From Pogonophryne albipinna (lineage: Eukaryota; Chordata; Actinopteri; Perciformes; Artedidraconidae): DNA of 64,000 bases. The notes under the pieces were generated by a model. The model searched no databases and had not been told where the DNA came from. It worked only from the letters and a program-made list of their open reading frames with translations. Location of the stretch: positions 10,118,494 through 10,182,493 of the forward strand of contig CM053256.1 in the NCBI GenBank assembly GCA_028583405.1, given 5' to 3'. Of this stretch, positions 7,233 to 63,957 are shown one piece after another; within the stretch, counting starts at the first letter, position 1; every line of letters starts with the position of its first letter. A program made the translations under genes and the position numbers.

Positions 7233-8115
7233 TATGTTTACCTTTAGCTAGCGGCTAAGCTAGCTGGACGCTACGGAGCCCAGCTATCCGCCCTCTGAAG
7301 CTTTTAGGGCCGACAGGGAGAGGAGAATGTCCCGCTAACGCTGTGTGTGTGTGTGTTTCACATTAGCGGGATGCTATGGAGCTCAGGTATCCGCCATCTG
7401 AAGCTTTTAGGGCCGACAGGGGGAGGAGAATACAACGCTGTGTGTATTTATCGCTAAGCTAGCGGCTAAGCTAGCTGGACGCTACGGAGCCCAGCTATCC
7501 GCCCTCTGAAGCTTTTAGGGCCGACAGGGAGAGGAGAATGTCCCGCTAACGCTGTGTGTGTGTGTTTCACATTAGCAGGATGCTATGGAGCTCAGGTATC
7601 CGCCATCTGAAGCTTTTAGGGCCGACAAGGGGAGGAGAATACAACGCTGTGTGTATTTATCGCTAAGCTAGCGGCTAAGCTAGCTGGACGCTACGGAGCC
7701 CAGCTATCCGCCCTCTGAAGCTTTTAGGGCCGACAGGGAGAGGAGAATGTCCCGCTAACGCTGTGTGTGTGTGTTTCACATTAGCGGGATGCTATGGAGC
7801 TCAGGTATCCGCCATCTGAAGCTTTTAGGGTCGACAGGGGGAGGAGAATACAATGCTGTGTGTATTTATCGCTAAGCTAGCTGGACGCTACGGAGGCCAG
7901 CTATCCGCCCTCTGAAGCTTGTAGGGCCGACAGGGGGAGGAGAATACAACGCTGTGTGTATTTATCGCTAAGCTAGCTGGACGCTACGGAGCCCAGCTAT
8001 CCGCCCTCTGAAGCGTTTAGTGCCGACAAGGGGAGGAGAATACAACGATGTGTGTATTTATCGCTAAGCTAGCTGGACGCTACGGTTCCGGTATCCGTCC
8101 TCTTTATTGCGGACA
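7233..8115. repeat. Higher-order minisatellite inside the hAT element
   Basis: Two related half-units of about 100 bp alternate. Each contains a version of ATCCGCC(C/A)TCTGAAGC, TTTTAGGGCCGACA and GGAGGAGAAT. One half opens with GCTAAGCTAGCTGGACGCTACGG, the other with a GT run and CATTAGCGGGATGCTATGG. The pair repeats with a period of about 210 bp for roughly three rounds. It then continues as about three single half-units that have lost their partner, before the GT microsatellite. Confidence 0.85.
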
Positions 8116-10074: not shown

Positions 10075-13000
10075 CAACCCTGTCTCCTAAAAATTACGTT
10101 CCCACAGAACTAAACTGCATTCTCAATTACGTTTAGTCAGAAACGTATTTTCTCCCACGTTACGTTCGTTATGAACGTATCTCAAATACGTTTATTTTCT
10201 ACATATCTTCTAGAAACATATTTTCTCCCACGTTACGTTTATGAACGTATCTTAAATATGTTTATTTTCTACATATCTTTGCCATTTTTTGTCTTGCTTA
10301 ATGATAATAGTCATTTATAAATATAATTTTAGAGCACACATTTGAAATCAGTAGGCGAGGCTGTAATTTCGCCAGCTGTTACTCTCATGAGCGAGGCAGA
10401 AAATAATAGTTTTAACATGCCAAAAAGTGTCGTTTATTGCACCTCAAACATTAAAACAAATCCAGAGTTACGTGTTTCTGTACTTCCTCTAAGAAGAAAG
10501 GACAGTAACAGAAGATCTCTGTGGCTTCAGGCTTGATCGCCGTTCAAATGACAGCGTTGGTTTCCCCAAAAGTGGGCGGGGCTGTAAAGTGACGTAGATT
10601 TTACTCTCATCTATTATTCAAAACCATTCTATTTATTCTAACGTAAATTACATGCCAGTGTTTTATCTTTTTATTTATTTGTTTTATTTAAAATCGTATA
10701 ATGTCGGACTTTTTTTTCCGTCTGTGAGGAAAAGAAATGGGGCTCAGAGCCTCAAATACTGAAATCTGTATTTTTTAAAATCTTTTTTTCCTTCTAATTT
10801 GTAATTATTTTCTAAATAACACACTGTTATTTACTCAACAATAACACACAATTATCCTTGTTTTTATTTATTCGTTTAATTCTATAATCTTGGGCTTTTT
10901 AGCATGCTTTTTAGCCGTAAATAAAGTCACCGGAAACAGACATAGGCCAATAAGGGACATTTCGAGCGATACACACCACAAACCCACTGAACAGATTACC
11001 CAAGATCCTCAGCTTGAAGCTCGTTGATTGGATGTTTTAGCCGCAATGCATGTTGGGATATGATGTTAATGCGATATGATATCCGAAAACATTTAAAAAA
11101 TATATAATAATACTTTATTCCCAGTGTTCTTGCTTTTCTCTTTGGAAGTCATCACATAACGGCATTGTAATACACGGTTCGGCTGCATTAAATATTACAC
11201 ATCTGCCGTAGTTCTTTATTTATAGAGCCCTGATGAGAAGACTTCTGGACAAACTTGAAGAACTGCATCTTGCATTTCTTTTCACAAAATACGTCTCCTT
11301 GCAGTATCAATACTAATTCGGCTGACTTTTATATTTGATCCAATTGGTAGATAGGTTATATTTACACCATAACGGTGCACAGCTGATAGAAAAGGACTTG
11401 TAGTTTTTAAAGATATTACTGATTTTGTTTGAATATAAGAATGTAAATACTGAGTTGAGAGAATAGTCAGGGGATTTGGGTGATGGGAGACACATCTATG
11501 GAATCACAATTTCAATAGCTTACCATTAAATGACGGATATACCTTTCTGTCTGTGATGTTTTACAAATCAGATAATAATGTGTAGAAGTAAAGCATGAGA
11601 AATAGTATAGCAATATCCTGTAAAATTATGTAAAAACATGAATAAAACTACACATCTTCAGATGTTATACATACATAAGTGTCCTACACTAATAATACAA
11701 AGTTATTATTAGTATGCTGTGTGTACCTTGTGTTAACCTAGTGGTTAAAGCACGTCATTGAATTATTTATGTTGAATAATGTTATTTTTGTTGAATAATG
11801 TTATTAGATGAAAAACATATTAAGAGTACATACTTTCATAGGGGGAAAGTAGAAGGTCAATGATAGAAGTATAGAATATAAAAAAATCAAGAAGATACTG
11901 TAAGTGATCTCTACAATAAAACAGTTTAGTACAGGATGTACAAAGATATTAATATGAGGATGTGCAAAACAGACAAACTAATTAACCTTTGTTAACACAT
12001 TAAAGAATACTTTAGGTTAAGGTCTTCTTTCAAATAAGAAAAAAGCTTTGGGGGTATCTATCTACAGATAAATATTAAGCCTGACAAATTACTTAACGTC
12101 TAATGTATTGCTTTCCTGCAATGTTAACTATGTTGAAGCACTTATTTTAACTGATATTATACACATTAATTATACTCTTATGTATGTAGATAGTATAATA
12201 AATGTGCAGAATTTGACAGTTTAATGGTGGAGGTATACACACATATTGATAGATGTCGTAATGCACTGTTGAGGAACCTGTGACCCAAGTTTTTCATTCA
12301 TTGCATAACTACACTGTAGTTGTGTATATGATATGTCAATAAACCTTAGAAAATCTTGAAATCTTGAAAGGGATGTGCAAACATAGCAATTATATACAGT
12401 CTTTAATTAACTATTAGTAGAGAATAACGAGTAATTAATATACTTTATAGAGATCTGCAGATAAATGTTTAGTCTTCTCAAGCACTAACTATCAAATATC
12501 TCTCCTGATTGTTGGCACTTGACAATCACTTTCCCTGAATTTTACTCAGGTGTAACTAAAGTCTGCTTTAAGGGTTGTTTATATTTCACATCATTAATCA
12601 GAATCGGCAGAGTTACTAAAGTAAATGTAGTGGAGTAAAAATAACAAGTTAACCTCTGAATTGTAGTGGAGTAGAATATATATTAATGCTGCCCATTATG
12701 GATACAAGCGATTTTCACCCAGGTAGTAATTACATGTTTTAAATGTGTACACACCAATGTGTTTCCTATCGCCTAAACCTCCAGGGCTGTACACAGTTTA
12801 ATACTGTCAACTTCTAATTTTTGGAAAAACGAAAACGTCTTTTAAAACTACAATTCCCAGTAGAGACGTGCCATAGAGAACATGTTGCGAAACACAATAG
12901 CCAGCATGTGTAGTTCTGGGGGGGCGTTCGAGTCCAGTTTTTAATAGTCTGCCGTGGTTTCGTTCCATTTCAAAGAGCTTGACGCTCGGCGTAACCTTGG

Positions 13001-13639
13001 CGCACTGCCACTCCAACATCCAATCACAGAGCTTGAAGATTAATCACGGGGTTTGTCAACGGGACTGTAGTCCCAAACGATAGCTGGGGATTATGGGTAG
13101 TGTAGTGTCTTCGGCCATTCTAAACTGAAATGTTTTTCGGATATCATATCGCATTAACAACACCACATCTGGCGTCACAGAGCTCTTCTGTTACTGTCCT
13201 TTCTTCTTAGAGGAAGTACAGAAACACGTAACTCTGGATTTGTTTTAATGTTTGAGTTGCAATAAACGACACAGCAGCTTTTTGGCATGTTAAAAACTAT
13301 TATTTTCTGCCTCACTCATGAGAGTAACAGCTGGCAAAATTACAGCCTTGTCTACTGATTTCAAATGTGTGCTCTAAAATGATATTTATAAATGACTATT
13401 ATCATTATTATAAGCAAGACAATAAATGGCAAAGATATGTAGAAAATAAACGTATTTAAGATACGTTCATAAGAAACGTAACGTGGGAGAAAATATGTTT
13501 CTAGAAGATATGTAGAAAATAAACGTATTTGAGATACGTTCATAACGAACGTAACGTGGGAGAAAATACGTTTCTTGCTAAACGTAATTGAAAATGCAGT
13601 TTAGTTCTGTGGGAACGTAATTTTTAGGAGACAGGGTTG
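10075..13639. mobile_element. THAP-encoding long-TIR DNA transposon, copy 1
   Basis: The element begins CAACCCTGTCTCC and ends GGAGACAGGGTTG. It is flanked by 7-bp direct repeats ACACACG (10068-10074 and 13640-13646). The terminal inverted repeats are about 450 bp long (to about 10525 on the left, from about 13180 on the right). Both carry a mirrored copy of the same THAP-domain coding fragment. The 2.6-kb core has no long frame, so this copy is non-autonomous. A nearly identical copy lies at 49320-52847. THAP DNA-binding domains occur in P-element and Kolobok transposases; the 7-bp duplication is closer to P-like elements (usually 8 bp), but the superfamily is not settled here. Confidence 0.85.
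10417..10536 (+). pseudogene. THAP-domain fragment with deleted zinc ligands (TIR of copy 1)
   Basis: This 39-codon frame starts MPKSVVYCTSN and ends SNRRSLWLQA. It matches the first half of a THAP domain, a C2CH zinc-binding, DNA-binding module at the N-terminus of some transposases. Copy 2 of the element reads MPKSCCVVYC at the same place. Copy 1 has lost six bases, removing two adjacent cysteines in frame. The frame then stops before the rest of the domain. A mirrored fragment lies on the minus strand near 13288-13187. Confidence 0.65.
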
Positions 13640-14930
13640 ACACACGTTAACCACGAACAGCCTATTAATCCGTTCTCCTCATGTTATTTCCTCCAACGTT
13701 GTGGAATTAGAGAAAAGGGGCTTCTTAACGTGCTTTTATCCGGGGTGGAGGGAGTTACATATTAGTTAAATATAACATTGGGGCGTGTGATTGTAGTGGG
13801 TGGAGGTGGTGAAATGAGGATATCCATTTTGGAGTTCAAGCTAGTATAATATAGTTAACGTTACACAATAATAAGGAAGAGAGCTATTTTTGTGATACAT
13901 CGCTATTGATATGGATTTAGAGTGGATATTTGAGACTTCTAAACAGTAAACAAAAACATAACTTATGGGTGAGTGTTTTTAGCAGAGCCATATAATGTCC
14001 TTGTGATTCTGTTGATTATTACCTGTCTGTATTATGTTGCAGCTCAGCTGATGTTGGATTGATGGCAAAGGGAGAGGGACTTAAGTGAGAGTGAAAACAC
14101 AAGGTACGTTTAAAATAGGTCAGCAATTTCCCATCCTCTAGGTTGCTAGATGTATCTAATCCTTTCTCCTGTCTCCCTCTTTCAGCACAAGAACCCCACG
14201 GGGATTCAATGGAGCCTGAAGACCTGCAATGAGACCCTCACCCTGCACCTGAGTCTCAACTCCCAGAGCTTTGCAAGCCTCTCCCTGTTCTTTATTTTGA
14301 TTAAACAGACATTAAGCTTCCCAATGGTGTGGTCTTCGTTTTGTGAAAAATATGATTACCTCACATATGTTGTTGCTGTTGTTGTCTTTTGTGATAGTTA
14401 AATTGCTCCTGCTGACTTGAGCCAGCCATTCTTTCCTCCTCTCTGTGTCAGTGGGGAAACCTTACATTCATACTCCTTTCTCTGAGCGCTTGGAGCATCC
14501 CCAGGCAGCACCGCAAACCATGGGGGAGACTATATGCCGGACAACACGGAGGAAAAGGCTCAGACAAACTGCATGCATGCTATTCAATGTTTATTGAATT
14601 CCATTTATTTACTGTCAGTTGACAATCATTGATAGGCACCTGTCGGTCTCCTGTCCTTTCTGAAAGTCATAAAGAAGACATTACTCATTTAGATTACTTA
14701 TGTCCTCAATTACCAGGGGATTACTGAAACCACCATGAATTAAAGACATTGAAGAAATGAATCTAAATCTGAATTTTGAAACCTTCCTTCCCTCCCCCTA
14801 AATATATCAAACATTAGGAAGTGATGCTCCTGACTACCATTCAAGTTTAAGAAGATAATATTTGTTATAAACAATTCAAAGCAATAAACAACAGCAACAG
14901 GCTCTTTAACCAAGGCAACGTTAGCCTAAC

Positions 14931-41276: not shown

Positions 41277-41974
41277 GTAAAGGATACTCATAAACATGAC
41301 AAATATGTTCGCCCAACCAATTTCGGGTTAATGTGTGTAAATATGGTACTGTCATCTTATGTGCCTCCCAATGACCGTGAATCGACTACTTAACGTCACT
41401 TACACTTACAATAATTACCATACGAAAAAACTAAAACTGAAATACTCTCTTTTGTTATGTTTAATATTTCAATTACATTATTATACATGTTCTGATGTGC
41501 GCCTTATTTAGTGCTGACTTTTATTTTGAAGCCAGATTTGTCCAGCCGGTAATAAGAGTCTGTAAACAAAGGAGGTTTCAATGACAGTACAGGGTCCTGG
41601 AAGAAATTGTGTGTCACCAGTGTGAGAAGTTCAATAAAAGGTGTGAGCTGCTTCTTATTATACATAACATACACTGATATAATGTGTGAATGGCATGTCT
41701 GTTTTAATTTCAAAGAGATAAAAAGCTGATAAATCTAACAAAATGAATAAAACAAATCTGAATCTAGCATTTTCCTCCTTAAACTTCGCTTTCAATAATT
41801 ACTCAGTTAAAGGAGGGGTAGGCAAGTTTGAGAAACCGGCTCGAGATACACTTTTTGTTATATTCCATGGAATGCTCTTAACATCCCGATAGCAATGCAT
41901 ATCTTAAGTGCTTTGACAAAAAATCCATAAAAAAATTTCATCTGTGGAAGCCGTAATACTGTAAAAAGTACGAC

Positions 41975-42017
41975 CAATCCAATCCGTTTAGCCGGCCCGG
42001 CTAAACGGATTGGATTG
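41975..42017. repeat. Perfect 21-bp-arm hairpin near the transposon left end
   Basis: Arms 41975-41995 and 41997-42017 are exact reverse complements around a single C, with the core TTTAGCCGG/CCGGCTAAA. It lies between the left inverted repeat and the transposase start codon, about 165 bp inside the element. No counterpart is seen at the right end. Confidence 0.9.
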
Positions 42018-42149
42018 CCGCCCTGTCTGTCAGCCTTCCATCTCGTGCACGCACAAATGTATCTCGTGCCCTCATTGGGCGTGACGTCATTGGGCGTGCA
42101 TTGCAGCAGTACTTCAATGACTCACCAGCAACAGGCGGCCACTTTCACC

Positions 42150-45100
42150 ATGGCAGAGTTACGTTCAACATCGTCTACTGGTCGCAAAAGAAAAAATGTA
42201 ACGGAGCAAAATAAGAACAAAAAGAAAGTGGAAACTAGGAGAAGTCAAACCAGAGTCAATATCGGAGTTGCTTTTCAACGATGGCGACTACTGATGGAAC
42301 ACACCGAGTTGAAATCTGATGCCATGGTCGCTCTTTTTCTCTTGGACAGGTAATTATCTGTTTTGTATGGTTTACAATTCCCCTGAACTATATAGCCAAC
42401 CTAAGTTTTAGCAGCTCATTTGTAAAACACTTTAAATTGCCGACGAGTATGAATTGTGCTATTTTAAAATACACTTAGCTTGCCTCGCCTTGCTTCACGC
42501 ATAGACATAGAACGTTTGTTTGTTATACATAAAAAAGTAAGTGAACATGTAAGTAGCAGCCAGTAGTGTGTGAATGTATATGACGAAATGCTCGTCTTTA
42601 TCAGACTGCTCTCTGGCAACAACTATGCCAAGATTTCACTACTATTCCGGTTCATGAACATGGGGATGGTGGATAGGTCCTCCTTCTTCAAAATCCAGGA
42701 CTACTACTGTGTGGACAGTATAAAGGACTTCTGGAACGAGAAGAGGGCCAAACTCATCACCCAGCTTCACCCTAAAGGGCCTGTTGTGATCTTGGGTAAG
42801 TTGGAGACACACACTAGCACAAACTATACACCATGGTATATAACTGTATTTGTTCCCCAGAAGCAGTATTAGCAGGGCAGATGCAAAAATAATTTTAAAT
42901 AAAGTTCAGTAAAGAACTCAAAAGTAATTGTGTGAAAGTAGAAATATAATGCAATCAAATGTGCCCAAAATGTCAGTCCAGTATTTCTTTTATTGGGGTT
43001 GAGCATAATTTCTACTCTTCATGTTGAGTGTGAGCCTATACCAGGCAACTTTTGCTTTTGAAAAGATGTGAATCAATATTTTCAATGTTGTTGTTTTTGT
43101 GTGAGATACAAAACGCTAGGCTGACCTAAGGTTGCTCAGTGTTTCATGCATTTTGAGCATCATGCAATTGAATGTTTATCGCAATATGGAACTATGTAGT
43201 TATCCTTTTTTGTTCTCATTTCGATTCAAAGGAGATGCTCGGATGGACAGTCCTGGATTCTGTGCGCAATACTGCACATACACTGCCATGGACAATGACT
43301 CCAAAAACATAATCTGCATGATCAACCTAGACAAGCGTGAAACACAGAGAAATTCTGTTATAATGGAGAAGGAGGGCTTCATGCGTGCCATTAATACACT
43401 TCGTGAAGAGCTGCATGTGACAGAAATTTGCACAGATGCTCATACGCAGATATCAGCCCTCTTCAGTAAGTGGATAAAATGTAGTTTTCTTCAGGGGTTT
43501 GTTGCAGCAAGTCCCAGACTACATTCATCACTGCATTACTATGACTGGACATAGTCAAATATGCTAGGTTATTACATAGCATATTTGTTTCATGACTTGT
43601 TTTTGTCCTTCAGGCAAAGGGGACTTGAAAGATAGCGGAATCCACCACTCTCTGGACATCTGGCATGGGTCCAAAAACTTGGGCAAAAAAGTTCTGACCG
43701 TAAGTCCATGATCTCTCAAAATAAAGATAGATAAATAAATAGATATGCTGTACTTCATTGAAATCATCTACATCAACCCTGTTTTAATAAACCCAGTTGA
43801 CGTCCCATAACAAACATTTTGTTCAATGTCCAGGCAGGGCAGCAAAAGGGGTGCTCCATACTACAGATGTGGAACAAGGACATCTGCAACCACTTCTGGT
43901 ACTGCTGTAAAACTGCCGACCATTATGAAGACTTCTTTGTAAGTATTACAAAACAAATATCATCAAATGAAATAATTTATAATAATGTAATACAATTTAA
44001 AAAGCTCAGAAATCAACATGCAATCAGTGCCTGATGCCATTTCCTCATCCATAACTATCATTTTCAGAGTAATGTAATTGCTGATATACAGGGCATTTAG
44101 TTTACACCATTATGTCAAACGCTGCATTTATGTAAAGGTGACTGAGATTTAGCAGACGCTTTTAGCCAGACACAGACTCGGAACATTCAGGAATCAAACC
44201 CGTAAACATACCAAGCGGTGACACTAACTGTTGATCTACTCATGCCTCCGCCTTATGGGAGTTGTTGTACCAAATGGTAACATGTATATATACTAATACT
44301 TTGGACAAAACATCAGAATAAAAGTGCTCGCTAGACCTTGGTCAACAGGTCGGATTCTTTTTCTGACTGTTCACCTGTGGTTTGTGCAAACTGGGCTTGC
44401 TCGCTTGCTGACCTCAGAATTCACAACACATTTCTATCTGTTTTTTCTCAGGACATGTGGACTGGACTCCTGCACCACGTCACAGGAGAACATTCATGGG
44501 CCCTTGGAGCCTGTCACCATGGCCCCTTGTTGGAGAGCAGAGAGAAGGAGTGGATCCAGCAGGGCTCCGTGGCACACCAGAGTCTTACTGATATCATTCT
44601 CAATGCACGTTGGCTTAAAAACGTCCACAAATATCTGCGTTTCAGGTATACCAGCCAAGGTCTATGTTCAAGTGACTGTTTTCCCATACGTCAATACTTC
44701 TGTGTTATTCTGAATTTGGTGCTTTTATGCATCAAATTGTATAACCAGAAAAAAAATAATGTATATTGTTTTCACTGTGCTCTCAGATCAACTGCAGACC
44801 TGGAGTCCTTCAATAATCACATTCTCATGTATGCAAGCAAGCGCTTCAGCTTCTCTCCAACGGTATATGCAGCTCGGACACTGCTGGCTGGCCTGGACTA
44901 CAATCACCACATCCACAGACCAGCAAAGAGAAAAAAAGATGGCTCTATTCAGTATATTGTAATAATATTACTCCTATGCATTTTAGTCTATTACCTTATA
45001 GGTGCTTAGTCAAGGCTGATCCAATGCTATGAAAAATAAGCATTGTGGAAGTACAAACTACTGTGCCATGTACGGTCATATGAACATTTCACTAATGTGT

Positions 45101-45776
45101 AACTTTTCTTTTATGGCAGATACAGGAAGTTGTACAACAAAAGGTCCAGGGCGTGGAGGTTGCACACATTGAAAGTAGAGAAGGATTACAGCTACATCCC
45201 CGACCTCCAGAGCGCTATCCTGCGGCGAAGATTGTCTGCAACCAAGGGGATGCCAAGGATCAGAGCCAAGAGGCCAGACGATCCCCGTCAACATGGGGTT
45301 CTGTCAGGTGCCCCTGCACCAACCACCCAGGAGCTGTTGCAGAAGCAAGTCAGCAGAGGACTAGGTGAGTTGTCTTACGATAATGTAGATTGATCATCAA
45401 GCGGTAACATTCTAGCAAAAGCTAGTTTAAAAAAAAGTGTCGACATTTATGCCAGGTTCCACAAAACATCATCAGTTTCTAAACCTCAGAGCTACTAATT
45501 ATGATCTACAAGAGTTATCTCAACAAAGTAATGGCTCAACCATATGCAAGTGTGTCCTTAGTCCACTAAAGAGTCTAGTCGTTTTGCTTTTCAAATCATC
45601 TTTGGACCCACAATAGGTATGACATTGAAAAGTGTTTTTCACTACATGAAATGCTGCCAAACTTGCAGTGTTGTCTGTCTTTGGCAGTAATGCGGGTGTT
45701 GTTGATATGCTGTAATTACTGTCATATATGTAATTGTGATATTTATTTTAAAGGACAATCACTGCCCAAGGAATAG
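42150..45776 (+). CDS. Kolobok-like DDE transposase, nine exons
   Basis: Exons 42150-42349, 42605-42795, 43232-43465, 43614-43699, 43834-43938, 44452-44645, 44787-44951, 45120-45364 and 45754-45776 join in phase into 480 codons plus TAG. All introns are GT-AG. An AATAAA lies at 45939. The N-terminus is very basic (GRKRKNVTEQNKNKKK). Candidate catalytic acids are Asp132/Asp136 in GDARMDSPGF, Asp199 in CTDAHTQIS and Glu343 in TADLESFNNHILMY. The conserved SLDIWHGSKNLGKKV and ICNHFWYCCK segments lie between them. It would cut and paste the element via its inverted repeats. From memory, relatives carry a cysteine-rich region between the N-terminal FLLD motif and LLSGNNYAK. Here exon 1 joins directly to that motif, so a segment may be missing. 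Exon 2's start is chosen by phase. Confidence 0.78.
44130..44245 (+). repeat. SINE-like fragment in a transposase intron
   Basis: The stretch containing TTTAGCAGACGCTTTTA and, further on, CATTCAGGAATCAAACCCG resembles abundant fish retroposon sequence. A second TTTAGCAGACGCT occurs near 46770, outside the ballast exon. Confidence 0.3.
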
Positions 45777-45938
45777 AGGATTGGCCCAGCACCAATATGC
45801 AACGTGCACATCCTGTCCTGTAATCAACAGCCTGGAAACCTCTGCCGACACACCATTTCTTCCTTTGTGTACATATGATGTTTATAGTTGTTATATAATG
45901 TATCTTGTAATATTGAATATTTGATGGTGTTCCAATAT

Positions 45939-46054
45939 AATAAACAGGTTTCATAACACATTTGGTTGTCGTCGTTCGTACATAAATAATAAATGTAATC
46001 GCTTCATTGTTTATGCTAAAAGGAAAAGGCATTAATCATTTTAAAGATTTTATT
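45939..46054. terminator. Convergent poly(A) signals of the two transposon genes
   Basis: AATAAA on the plus strand at 45939-45944 lies 163 bp after the transposase stop. AATAAA on the minus strand at 46054-46049 lies about 83 bp after the ballast-gene stop. The transcription units would overlap at their ends unless cleavage is efficient. Confidence 0.6.
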
Positions 46055-46136
46055 TAAACAAGTTTGACGAAAGTGCAGAACATAAATAGTGAATTATTTT
46101 TAAAGAAATATTGTGATTGCACTTATGACTGTGAGC

Positions 46137-47108
46137 TTATACCCTACTGGGGATGAAGCCTTTGTACTGTCCATGTGAATCTGGGTACCGGTCTCGTATC
46201 TTCCAGACACAGCAACTGGGTATAATCACTCTGTGACCCTGTCCCAAGGCTCCATATTGCCACACAACAAATTGTCTGTATGCTGCATAGCGGAACTGTT
46301 TGTTGCTCTCCCCTGTGTCTTGAACATCAGCCACTGCCCGGATATCGTTCCAGATCCGTCTTGCAAGGCGCAGGACCCCCTCCTGCAAAATATACACTTC
46401 CATGTGTGGAAGGCTGGAAACACAGGAGTCATGAGGTTGCCCACAGCATTTCCTTTCCACATCTGTGGACATTTCTCTGCAGTTATGGCAGAAACACCAA
46501 CTGGGTTGACCTTCAACGGGCCACTCTGCTTTGACCAGATGTGCTGGGTTCTGGAGTGTACTCAGTGTCAGAGGAAACCATGCTCTCATCCTGGATGCTC
46601 TCATCCTGGAAGCTCTAACAAGCGAAACAAGAGATTATAATATAATTATGAATTATTATAATATTATAATAATTATTATGAATGAATTATAATATGAAAT
46701 CCACGTTCCTCAATGTGTCACCGATGATAACAGAAACAAACGGCAGGTAGCATTTACATGTACTCATTTAGCAGACGCTGTCTAGCGTAGCTAGGTAATT
46801 AGGTACTGTATTTAGTTCGTCAACAAACATAATAGATGAATACGCTAAATATTTCAAATAAACATTAAAAACCAACTTGGGCTGTGTAGTATTGCTAACC
46901 TAGATGTGTTTAGCTTTGCCTGATATGTAACGTTACTGCAGCCTGCTCTCGCCAGCTAGCCAGAAATAATTTACTTATTTTTAATACATTTTCCCAAAAC
47001 AAACATGCTAGCTTAAAAAATATAAGCACTGACAATAACTTTGTTCCTTTTTTACGTTCATTATTATGATAATCTTAGGTGTTGTTTTCTTACATCTGAT
47101 TGAGCCAT
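46137..47108 (-). CDS. P2X7 C-terminal (ballast) domain-like protein, frame disrupted
   Basis: Probable exon 1 is 47108-47094 (MAQSD, then a GTAAGA donor). Exon 2 starts at 46614 after a TTGTTAG acceptor and ends at stop 46137. The domain body is open from about 46540: SWCFCHNCREMSTDVERKCC, then EVYILQEGVLRLARRIW, NKQFRYAAYRQFVVWQYG and PSCCVWKIRDRYPDSHGQY. The last block closely matches the end of the P2X7 receptor (PSCC.W.IR..P.S.GQY.GF), whose cytoplasmic ballast binds zinc and guanine nucleotide. No transmembrane segment is present, so this is a free-standing domain. Exon 2 is 478 nt, not a multiple of three. The acidic N-terminal part (DTEYTPEPSTSGQ) is in another frame and meets TGA at 46515-46513. 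This implies a one-base-type frameshift near 46515-46540, or initiation at ATG 46604 giving 155 aa. Confidence 0.7.
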
Positions 47109-47620
47109 GTTTTCCCAAGATGCTCAAGTCTGCTGACGTCATGTGCGCGTTCATGTGTGTTGGAGGAGGTGCTCTGTAAGGAAGTCTGAAGGAAGGGGCG
47201 GATTCTTTTCGGCTGTGTACTTTCAAATGTTAGTGCACTCGAGCCGGTTTCTCAAACTTGCCTACCCCTCCTTTAAGCAAAGGTCCAAATAAAATAAAGG
47301 CTTAACATCTGATATAACTCCGTTTAGAAAATACAACTAAATATTTCACAGCATCATAAAACATTAGGCCATAGTATATCACATTATGAAATTAGCAATA
47401 GTGGATATGAGTTAACCATGTGTTACCATATTTCAGTGCTGTATTTTGATTTTAAACATGAGGCATTCCTAGCATTCGGTGCCATTTCAGCTAGGTTAAT
47501 CAAAAATAAAAAACATAATTGTCCATGTTTTTTTTATTTTAATCTGAATGATGGCTTGTTAAAGTATAAGAAAAATATTTTGGTCAAGATCAGGATTTTT
47601 TAACATCCCCAACAGTTACT

Positions 47621-49312: not shown

Positions 49313-49319
49313 ATGCATT

Positions 49320-52300
49320 CAACCCTGTCTCCTAAAAATTACGTTCCCACAGAACTAAACTGCATTCTCAATTACGTTTAGTCAGAAACGTATTTTCTCC
49401 CACGTTACGTTCGTTATGAACGTATCTCAAATACGTTTATTTTCTACATATCTTCTCGAAACATATTTTCTCCCACATTACGTTTATTATGAACGTATCT
49501 TAAATACGTTTATTTTCTACATATCTTTGCCTTTTATTGTCATGCTTAATGATAATAGTCATTTATAAATATAATTTTAGAGCACACATTTGAAATCAGT
49601 AGGCGAGGCTGTAATTTCGCCAGCTGTTACTCTCATGAGCGAGACAGAAAATAATAGTTTTAACATGCCAAAAAGCTGCTGTGTCGTTTATTGCACCTCA
49701 AACATTAAAACAAATCCAGAGTTACGTGTTTCTGTACTTCCTCTAAGAAGAAAGGACAGTAACAGAAGATCTCTGTGGCTTCAGGCTTGATCGCCGTTCA
49801 AATGACAGCGTTGGTTTCCCCAAAAGTGGGCGGGGCTGTAAAGTGACGTAGATTTTACTCTCATCTATTATTCAAAACCATTCTATTTATTCTAACGTAA
49901 ATTACATGCCAGTGTTTTATCTTTTTATTTATTTGTTTTTATTTAAAATCGTATAATGTCGGACTTTTTTTCCGTCTGTGAGGAAAAGAAATGGGGCTGA
50001 GAGCCTCAAATACTGAAATCTGTATTTTTTAAAATCTTTTTTTCCTTCTAATTTGTAATTATTTTCTAAATAACACACTGTTATTTACTCAGCAATAACA
50101 CACAATTATCCTTGTTTTTATTTATTCGTTTAATTCTATAATCTTGGGCTTTTTAGCCGTAAATAAAGTCACCGGAAACAGACGTAGGCCTATAAGGGAC
50201 ATTTCGAGCGATACACACCACAAACCCACTGAACAGATTACCCAAGATCCTCAGCTTGAAGCTCGTTGATTGGATGTTTTAGCCGCAATGCATGTTGGGA
50301 TATGATGTTAATGCGATATGATATCCGAAAACATTTAAAAAATATATAATAATACTTTATTCCGAGTGTTCTTGCTTTTCTCTTTGGAAGTCATCACATA
50401 ACGGCATTGTAATACACGGTTCGGCTGCATTAAATATTACACATCTGCCGTAGTTCTTTATTTATAGAGCCCTGATGAGAAGACTTCTGGACAAACTTGA
50501 ACAAAAATACGTCTCCTTGCAGTATCAATACTAATTCGGCTGACTTTTATATTTGATCCAATTGGTAGATAGGTTACATTTACACCATAACGGTGCACAG
50601 CTGATAGAAAATGACTTGTAGTTTTTAAAGATATTACTGATTTTCTTTGAATATAAGAATGTAAATACTGAGTTGAGAGAATAGTCAGGGGATTTGGGTG
50701 ATGGGAGACACATCTATTGAATCACAATTTCAATAGCTTACCATTAAATGACGGATATGGCTTTCTGTCTGTGATGTTTTACAAATCAGATATTAATGTG
50801 TAGAAGTAAAGCATGAGAAATAGTATTGCAATATCCTGTAAAATTATGTAAAAACATGAATAAAACTACACATCTTCAGATGTTATACATACATAAGTGT
50901 CCTACACTAATAATACAAAGTTATTATTAGTATGCTGTGTGTACCTTGTGTGTACTGCCTAGTGGTTAAAGCACGTCATTGAATTATTTATGTTGAATAA
51001 TGTTATTTTTGTTGAATAATGTTATTAGATGAAAAAAATATTAAGAGTACATACTTTCATAGGGGGAAAGTAGAAGGTCAATGATAGAAGTATAGAATAT
51101 AAAAAAATCAAGAAGATACTGTAAGTGATCTCTACAATAAAACAGTTTAGTGCAGGATGTACAAAGATATTAATATGAGGATGTGCAAAACAGACAAACT
51201 AATTAACCTTTGTTAACACATTAAAGAATACTTTAGGTTAAGGTATTCTTTCAAATAAGAAAAAAGCTTTGGGGGTATCTATCTACAGATAAATATTAAG
51301 CCTGACAAATTACTTAACGTCTAATGTATTGCTTTCCTGCAATGTTAACTATGTTGAAACACTTATTTTAACTGATATTATACACATTAATTATACTCTT
51401 ATGTATGTAGATAGTATAATAAATGTGCAGAATTTGACAGTTTAATGGTGGAGGTACACACATATTGATAGATGTCTTGTAATGCACTTTTGAGGAACCT
51501 GTCACCCAAGTTTTTCATTCATTGCATAACTACACTAGTTGTGTATATGATATGTCAATAAACCTTAGAAAATCTTGAAATCTTGAAAGGGATGTGCAAA
51601 CATAGCAATTATATACAGTTTTTAATTAACTATTAGTAGAGAATAACGAGTAATTAATATACTTTATAGAGATCTGCAGATAAATGTTTAGTCTTCTCAA
51701 GCACCAACTATCAAATATCTCTCCTGATTGTTGGCACTTTCCCTGAATTTTACTCAGGTGTAACTAAAGTCTGCTTTAAGGGTTGTTTATATTTCACATC
51801 ATTAATCAGAATCTGCAGAGTTACTAAAGTAAATGTAGTGGAGTAAAAATAACAAGTTAACCTCTGAATTGTAGTGGAGTAGAATATATATTAATGCTGC
51901 CCATTATGGATACAAGCGATTTTCACCCATGTAGTAATTACATGTTTTAAATGTGTACACACCAATGTGTTTCCTATCGCCTAAACCTCCAGGACTGTAC
52001 ACAGTTTAATACTGTCAACTTCTAATTTTTGGAAAAACGAAAACGTCTTTTAAAACTAAAATTCCCAGTAGAGACGTGCCATAGAGAACATGTTGCGAAA
52101 CACAATAGCCAGCATGTGTAGTTCTGGGGGGGCGTTCGAGTCCAGTTTTGAATAGTCTGCCGTGATTTCGTTCCATTTCAAAGAGCTTGACGCTCGGCGT
52201 AACCTTGGCGCACTGCCACTCCAACATCCAATCACAGAGCTTGAAGATTAATCACGGGGTTTGTCAACGGGACTGTAGTCCCAAACGATAGCTGGGGATT

Positions 52301-52847
52301 ATGGGTAGTGTAGTGTCTTCGGCCATCCTAAACTGAAATGTTTTTCGGATATCATATCGCATTAACAACACCACATCTGGCGTCACAGAGATCTTCTGTT
52401 ACTGTCCTTTCTTCTTAGAGGAAGTACAGAAACACGTAACTCTGGATTTGTTTTAATGTTTGAGTTGCAATAAACGACACAGCAGCTTTTTGGCATGTTA
52501 AAAACTATTATTTTCTGCCTCGCTCATGAGAGTAACAGCTGGCAAAATTACAGCCTCGTCTACTGATTTCAAATGTGTGCTCTAAAATGATATTTATAAA
52601 TGACTATTATCATTATTATAAGCAAGACAATAAATGGCAAAGATATGTAGAAAATAAACGTATTTAAGATACGTTCATAAGAAACGTAACGTGGGAGAAA
52701 ATATGTTTCTAGAAGATATGTAGAAAATAAACGTATTTAAGATACGTTCATAACAAACGTAACGTGGGAGAAAATACGTTTCTTGCTAAACGTAATTGAG
52801 AATGCAGTTTAGTTCTGTGGGAACGTAATTTTTAGGAGACAGGGTTG
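49320..52847. mobile_element. THAP-encoding long-TIR DNA transposon, copy 2
   Basis: The termini (CAACCCTGTCTCC / GGAGACAGGGTTG), long inverted repeats and core match copy 1 at 10075-13639, in the same orientation. The flanking 7-bp repeat is ATGCATT (49313-49319 and 52848-52854), different from copy 1, so this is an independent insertion and not a segmental duplication. Differences are scattered substitutions and small indels. Copy 2 lacks about 28 bp found at 11260-11287 in copy 1 but keeps the six bases encoding two THAP cysteines. No catalytic transposase frame is present. Confidence 0.88.
49665..49790 (+). pseudogene. THAP-domain N-terminal fragment in TIR of copy 2
   Basis: A 41-codon frame reads MPKSCCVVYCTSNIKTNPEL, then RVSVLPLRRKDSNRRSLWLQ and A. 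It has the opening cysteines and the basic-Trp segment of a THAP domain. The domain's later Cys-His pair and AVPTIF-type end are absent because the frame stops. The right inverted repeat carries a mirrored fragment on the minus strand near 52500-52395. Confidence 0.7.
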
Positions 52848-52854
52848 ATGCATT

Positions 52855-56774: not shown

Positions 56775-63957
<7,183 letters not shown>

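Follow-up and report, generated by a model that had tools for sequence, protein, structure and literature searches.

The 64,000-nucleotide stretch of the Pogonophryne albipinna genome analyzed here (contig CM053256.1, positions 10,118,494 to 10,182,493; hereafter the window) contains a DNA transposon at positions 41807-47276 that carries two convergent genes: a transposase gene on the plus strand and, on the minus strand, KolX, which encodes a homolog of the ballast domain of the ion channel P2X7. The original prediction of TTAA outside perfect 35-bp terminal inverted repeats (TIRs) was borne out. TTAA target-site duplications (41807-41810 and 47273-47276) enclose a left TIR at 41811-41845 (plus strand) and a right TIR at 47238-47272 (minus strand), and the 39 nt at either end (41807-41845 versus 47238-47276) are perfectly complementary; the copy measures 5.46 kb between the duplications. 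The TIR starts with AGGAGGGGTAGGCAAGTT, and its first 18 bp, allowing up to three mismatches, match twice in the 64 kb, both times at the element ends (0.01 matches expected). The exact TIR was absent from the viral contigs searched.

This teleost element belongs to the Kol0 type of Kolobok DNA transposons and amplified recently. Its termini read AGG...CCT, that is, 5'-RR...YY-3', in the window copy and in 18 sister copies elsewhere in the genome; such ends separate Kolobok from piggyBac elements (PMC9587614). TTAA is duplicated around the window copy and on both sides of 18 of 20 sister copies, a C/DxxH motif lies between the second catalytic D and the E (catalytic residues being assigned by motif), and the second protein, KolX, with its P2RX7_C domain, is complete in sister copies and shortened in the window. 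A piggyBac identity was rejected on the RR...YY ends and on the 754-aa transposase, which matched no Pfam family at E values up to 1.

Nine plus-strand exons in the window, separated by GT-AG introns, join into an open transposase frame of 480 aa. This frame and its introns agree with the nine-exon transposase gene originally read here, which is not complete: L014, the most complete sister copy, has 14 exons encoding 754 aa, and relative to it the window transposase is about 275 residues short, exons 2-6 and 95 of the 286 bp of exon 7 being gone. In the numbering of the complete gene, the window retains exon 1 (42150-42349), the deletion junction (42604/42605), an exon 7 remnant (42605-42795, the second of the nine exons), exon 8 with the candidate first and second catalytic D (43232-43465), exon 9 with DIWH as the C/DxxH motif (43614-43699), exon 10 (43834-43938), exon 11 (44452-44645), exon 12 with LESFNNH and the candidate catalytic E (44787-44951), exon 13 (45120-45364) and exon 14 with the stop (45754-45776). 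Splicing would have to enter the exon 7 remnant, which starts at the deletion junction. Homologs give the same picture. Searches returned 246, many of the best 120 being 650-800 aa long; when tblastn was run with six of them against the window, residues 1 to 60-80 matched in five of the six and matches resumed from about residue 310-355 onward, while the stretch in between had no counterpart in the 64 kb at E values up to 1. Residues D422, D489, D514xxH517 and E634 (numbering of the homolog P0067) are invariant in 23 of 23 aligned homologs and present in the window protein. A structure model of P0067 (predicted local distance difference test score, pLDDT, 69.5) retrieved the ISCth4 transposase as its best Foldseek match (E 9.7e-7), the sole one of 673 below 0.001; weaker matches, between 1e-3 and 1e-2, were to retroviral integrases and Hermes.

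The KolX gene of the window is represented by a minus-strand open reading frame (46137-46634), convergent to the transposase, that encodes the P2X7 ballast: it matches Pfam P2RX7_C over profile positions 61-191 of 192 (E 2.8e-29), and the four distinct sequences of solved structures that it matches are all P2X7 (best E 1.2e-16). The zinc-cluster cysteines (WCxCxxC, KCC, C and PSCC) all align between KolX and the P2X7 ballast; which seven of them coordinate zinc is taken partly from papers and is otherwise presumed. The complete form, read in L014, has three exons and 260 aa, and consists of the start MAQSD, an arginine-glycine (RG)-rich linker and a last exon of 168 aa, which begins in phase 0 and combines a helical module with the ballast. 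Relatives of KolX share this conserved N-terminal helical stretch. It is gone from the window copy, in which a deletion of about 0.49 kb relative to L016 (junction at 46511-46517, with a 7-bp overlap) has taken the RG-rich linker and the helical module. What remains on the minus strand is exon 1 (MAQSD, with a GT donor; 47094-47108), an exon 2 remnant joined by the deletion to exon 3 (46137-46614), and the complete ballast core (46140-46520); read from the natural start, the frame meets a stop at codon 39. Thus, the free-standing convergent ballast gene first described has the C-terminal end as written and the homology claimed for it, but it is broken, and two intact genes in the window are ruled out by the relatives and the sister copies. 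Neither complete KolX nor the transposase contained the P2X channel domain (PF00864) in a Pfam scan. Among viral contigs, 23 stretches fit a pattern for KolX homologs and none was confirmed.

Within the 1.07-Gb genome, the ballast query scored at 40 of 52 candidate places, namely the window and 39 others, with ballasts 99% identical. Twenty sister copies were fetched at 9.9 kb each, chosen by ballast similarity. Both TIRs and the flanking TTAA were found in 18 of them, at 18 different sites; L017 and L020 showed the right end alone within the fetched stretch, with TTAA present there. The expectation that further copies would hold the gene pair within the same TIRs was therefore confirmed by these 18, in which KolX is intact and the transposase mostly broken or partly deleted. 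They fall into length classes of 7.6-8.1 kb (n = 10) and 5.8-6.0 kb (n = 8), and mean pairwise divergence among them and the window copy is only 0.36%, which points to a recent burst. Members of the short class lack transposase exons 2-6 and part of exon 7, with two slightly different junctions: one is shared by the window, L019, L025 and L029, the other by L013, L015, L021, L022 and L030. The KolX loss of about 0.49 kb is confined to the window among the 19 copies. As a separate observation, the two junction types lie within about 10 bp of each other on either side of the lost transposase segment, which hints at a deletion hotspot or a stepwise change.

The two genes have decayed unevenly. 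In all 18 end-to-end copies the KolX frame runs uninterrupted to its natural stop, its length changing only by whole RG-repeat codons, and KolX is intact in 35 of 40 copies (exceptions: the window, L040, L044, L047 and L048). The transposase is open in one of the 18 (L014), or in three if exon 2 may be absent (L016 and L024), and is broken or missing exons in the other 15; eight fully covered copies of about 5.9 kb retain KolX with much of the transposase gone. Of the 27 KolX changes across 39 copies, 14 are synonymous and 13 nonsynonymous, where about 21 nonsynonymous ones would be expected (ratio of nonsynonymous to synonymous polymorphism, pN/pS, 0.27; one-sided binomial p = 0.0009), with a pN/pS of 0.19 for the codons outside the query part. 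The transposase of 19 copies shows six synonymous and 32 nonsynonymous changes, four of them stops (pN/pS 1.43, p = 0.85); the change counts of the two genes differ (Fisher p = 0.003). The low KolX ratio should not be over-read: on the 19 copies alone the count is 5 to 5 (p = 0.054), and with L040 included (40 copies) it is 59 synonymous to 174 nonsynonymous (0.87, p = 0.19, not significant), L040 having been set aside because its sequence upstream of the ballast is unlike that of the element and swamped the count. The contrast between the two ratios is suggestive, with the reservation that the copies were picked by their ballast match.

Three further accounts of KolX may be considered, each of them rather improbable. 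It is possible, if doubtful, that each copy needs its own KolX, which would act preferentially in cis and be kept even in deletion derivatives, while the transposase serves the copies in trans and degenerates. Were that so, the cytoplasmic P2X7 ballast would derive from a cis-acting transposon factor under selection, probably a nuclear zinc/RG nucleic-acid-binding protein, that was domesticated as the tail of an ion channel. With similarly modest plausibility, KolX may not help the transposase directly and may instead counter host defense (for example, PIWI-interacting RNA or chromatin silencing) or regulate expression of the element; an RG-rich linker with a zinc cluster fits many nuclear roles, and the eight short copies that keep KolX agree with such a role too. 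The third account, which can be held no more than tentatively, is that KolX is a passenger whose intactness reflects the youth of the copies and their sampling. Besides the low divergence, it is favored by the choice of copies through a ballast match, which favors an intact exon 3, and by a coding variability of KolX equal to that of adjacent noncoding sequence (24/777 versus 26/704, p = 0.57), so that the low pN/pS is partly due to many synonymous changes. Against it, 15 of the 18 end-to-end copies have an equally young transposase that is broken or partly deleted, nonsynonymous changes in KolX fall below expectation, and conservation of KolX extends from fish to amphioxus.

Pairing of the two genes in other genomes was read by eye from 66 KolX rows and the best 120 of 246 transposase rows. 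Mugilogobius carries them under consecutive locus tags (WMY93_012474 for KolX, WMY93_012473 for the transposase), and in Cyprinodon tularosa they lie on contigs of equal length (56,069 bp); weaker evidence comes from Perca fluviatilis and Alosa alosa, where both genes lie on chromosome-size contigs of identical size. Pairing was not readable for most other rows. Divergence of KolX and the transposase is correlated over five host pairs (r = 0.80), a value reached by 9 of 120 permutations and suggestive only. A search for long proteins with a KolX-like ballast yielded one match among 56 candidates, a BTB-ballast protein of Mugilogobius, and no P2X7. On the side, P0187, a hypothetical protein of Mugilogobius chulae, couples BTB domains with a ballast of the KolX type that is almost identical to P0029; it is either a gene-prediction artifact beside a transposon or a new fusion.

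P. albipinna also encodes a true P2X7, which allows a contrast within one genome. A Pfam search gave 51 matches to P2X exons, and the 4 kb downstream of eight clusters was read, a ninth, apparently duplicate cluster (C6:44173081-44183922) being left out. A P2X7 ballast exon was found downstream of one cluster (L055, 601-975, minus strand). Its product is 45-47% identical to mammalian P2X7 and 30% identical to the KolX of the element, while the latter is 58% identical to an amphioxus KolX over 67% of the query. The last exons are similar in size (165 aa in P2X7, 168 aa in KolX) and both begin in phase 0; for P2X7 the phase was judged from an acceptor located where the open frame begins, and such agreement has one chance in three. 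Among the residues of the guanosine-nucleotide site listed by Rump 2020 (PMC7016195), alignments give KolX counterparts for R546 and R578 and none for H547, R574 and K583.

In an unrooted tree of 23 rows (the host P2X7, three mammalian P2X7 and 19 KolX, 18 of which were chosen from 66), the host P2X7 groups with the three mammalian sequences (100/99), on a long branch, and all 19 KolX, amphioxus included, fall on the opposite side, where the KolX of the element is sister to a Dissostichus sequence (98/91). An earlier tree without the host P2X7 likewise set mammalian P2X7 apart. This tree bears on two points raised on first reading: the ballast of the element was to lie outside fish P2X7, and it does; the opposite case, a recent one-off capture of a host exon by the transposon, is contradicted. 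A further proposal, that transposition delivered the ballast to P2X7, accords with the recurrence of the element and with the tree, its direction resting on distribution. Free ballast proteins are widespread in animals (sponges, cnidarians, molluscs and others) and P2X7 occurs in bony vertebrates only, Rump 2020 (PMC7016195) having found no typical P2X7 in jawless or cartilaginous fish; the direction from transposon to P2X7 is drawn from this distribution. The P2X7 ballast is thus most likely a captured KolX last exon, with the transposon on the source side. That the transposon took its ballast from fish P2X7 is highly improbable: the two domains are clearly homologous, but KolX stands closer to amphioxus KolX than to the host P2X7, the 100/99 branch splits P2X7 from KolX, and free ballasts occur in lineages well outside bony vertebrates.

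The evidence taken together makes it quite probable that the element is a Kol0-type Kolobok with KolX as its standard second gene, that the window copy is a deleted derivative, and that the P2X7 ballast is a captured KolX exon. The DDE transposase would cut and paste the element at TTAA, and the window copy, doubly deleted, would be a probably non-autonomous derivative mobilized in trans. KolX, which combines a zinc-cluster (ballast) domain with an RG-rich linker, would most likely assist transposition in the nucleus by binding nucleic acid or the transposase, and capture of its last exon would have given rise to the P2X7 ballast, as published by Kojima and Bao 2022. Besides the sampling and variability of the KolX copies discussed above, several points weigh against this reading. 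The Kol0 assignment follows from possession of KolX and not from a transposase tree, and the ISCth4 fold match has a low TM-score (0.25 by query, 0.42 by target). The structure model of the shortened window KolX is unusable (pLDDT 43), and the function of KolX, proposed from sequence, is unproven. No counterpart of the KolX helical module could be detected in the last exon of the host P2X7, where 238 of 995 reported shuffles scored as high, and an unrooted tree gives the separation of KolX and P2X7, not its direction. A single genome that holds both a genuine P2X7 ballast exon and dozens of young transposons with the homologous KolX provides a check on the proposed transposon origin of the tail of a major immune ion channel. 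Its young, near-identical copies open KolX function to experiment and population statistics, and an answer there would be relevant to the reason for a ballast in P2X7.

Other features of the element include a subterminal perfect 21-bp hairpin with a 1-nt loop (41975-42017), in a region whose length varies among sister copies, and the motif TGACGTCA, of which the 64 kb contain just two sites, against 0.8 predicted by base composition. Both sites (42082-42089, upstream of the transposase start, and 47134-47141, directly upstream of the KolX start) lie 20-70 bp upstream of the two gene starts. We take the motif to be CRE/ATF-like; a CREB/ATF-driven promoter for the genes of the element is a guess. 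Elsewhere in the window, a second repeated element of about 3.55 kb occurs at 10075-13640 and 49319-52848, its repeated blocks mostly 98-99% identical between the two copies and its inverted ends made of two 73-bp minisatellite units. A partial copy (58184-60032) lies inside a 413-nt inverted repeat (57400-57812 and 60870-61282), and a tandem array of four copies of a 209-bp unit occupies 7246-8073.

Kol0 elements are known to encode KolX, a protein similar to the P2X7 ballast, and P2X7 has been proposed to have arisen when a P2X4-like gene fused with KolX (Kojima and Bao 2022, PMC9587614). The KolX-P2X7 link is thus already in print, no further paper on it was found in the literature searched, and the present element is taken as one more of that kind. 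It resembles the Kol0 type (Kolobok-1_XT) in its TTAA duplication, its 5'-RR...YY-3' ends, its DDE transposase with C/DxxH and its second gene, a homolog of the P2X7 ballast that has the seven cysteines, and differs in that the window copy is internally deleted in both genes; the likeness is one of described features. With the P2X7 ballast (PF20478; solved in 6u9v and others), KolX shares a homologous zinc-cluster domain with its zinc cysteines and, in P. albipinna, a final exon of similar size and phase, but it has no P2X channel part. Free-standing ballast proteins such as Nanor (PTHR36981) are likewise short, with a C-terminal ballast and little else. These are taken as host genes by Rump 2020 (PMC7016195), whereas KolX here lies within a mobile element, and Nanor itself is probably a domesticated KolX according to Kojima and Bao (PMC9587614). 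To these known systems the P. albipinna element adds the contrast of P2X7 and KolX within one genome and the uneven decay of its two genes, neither of which was noticed in the consulted part of PMC9587614.

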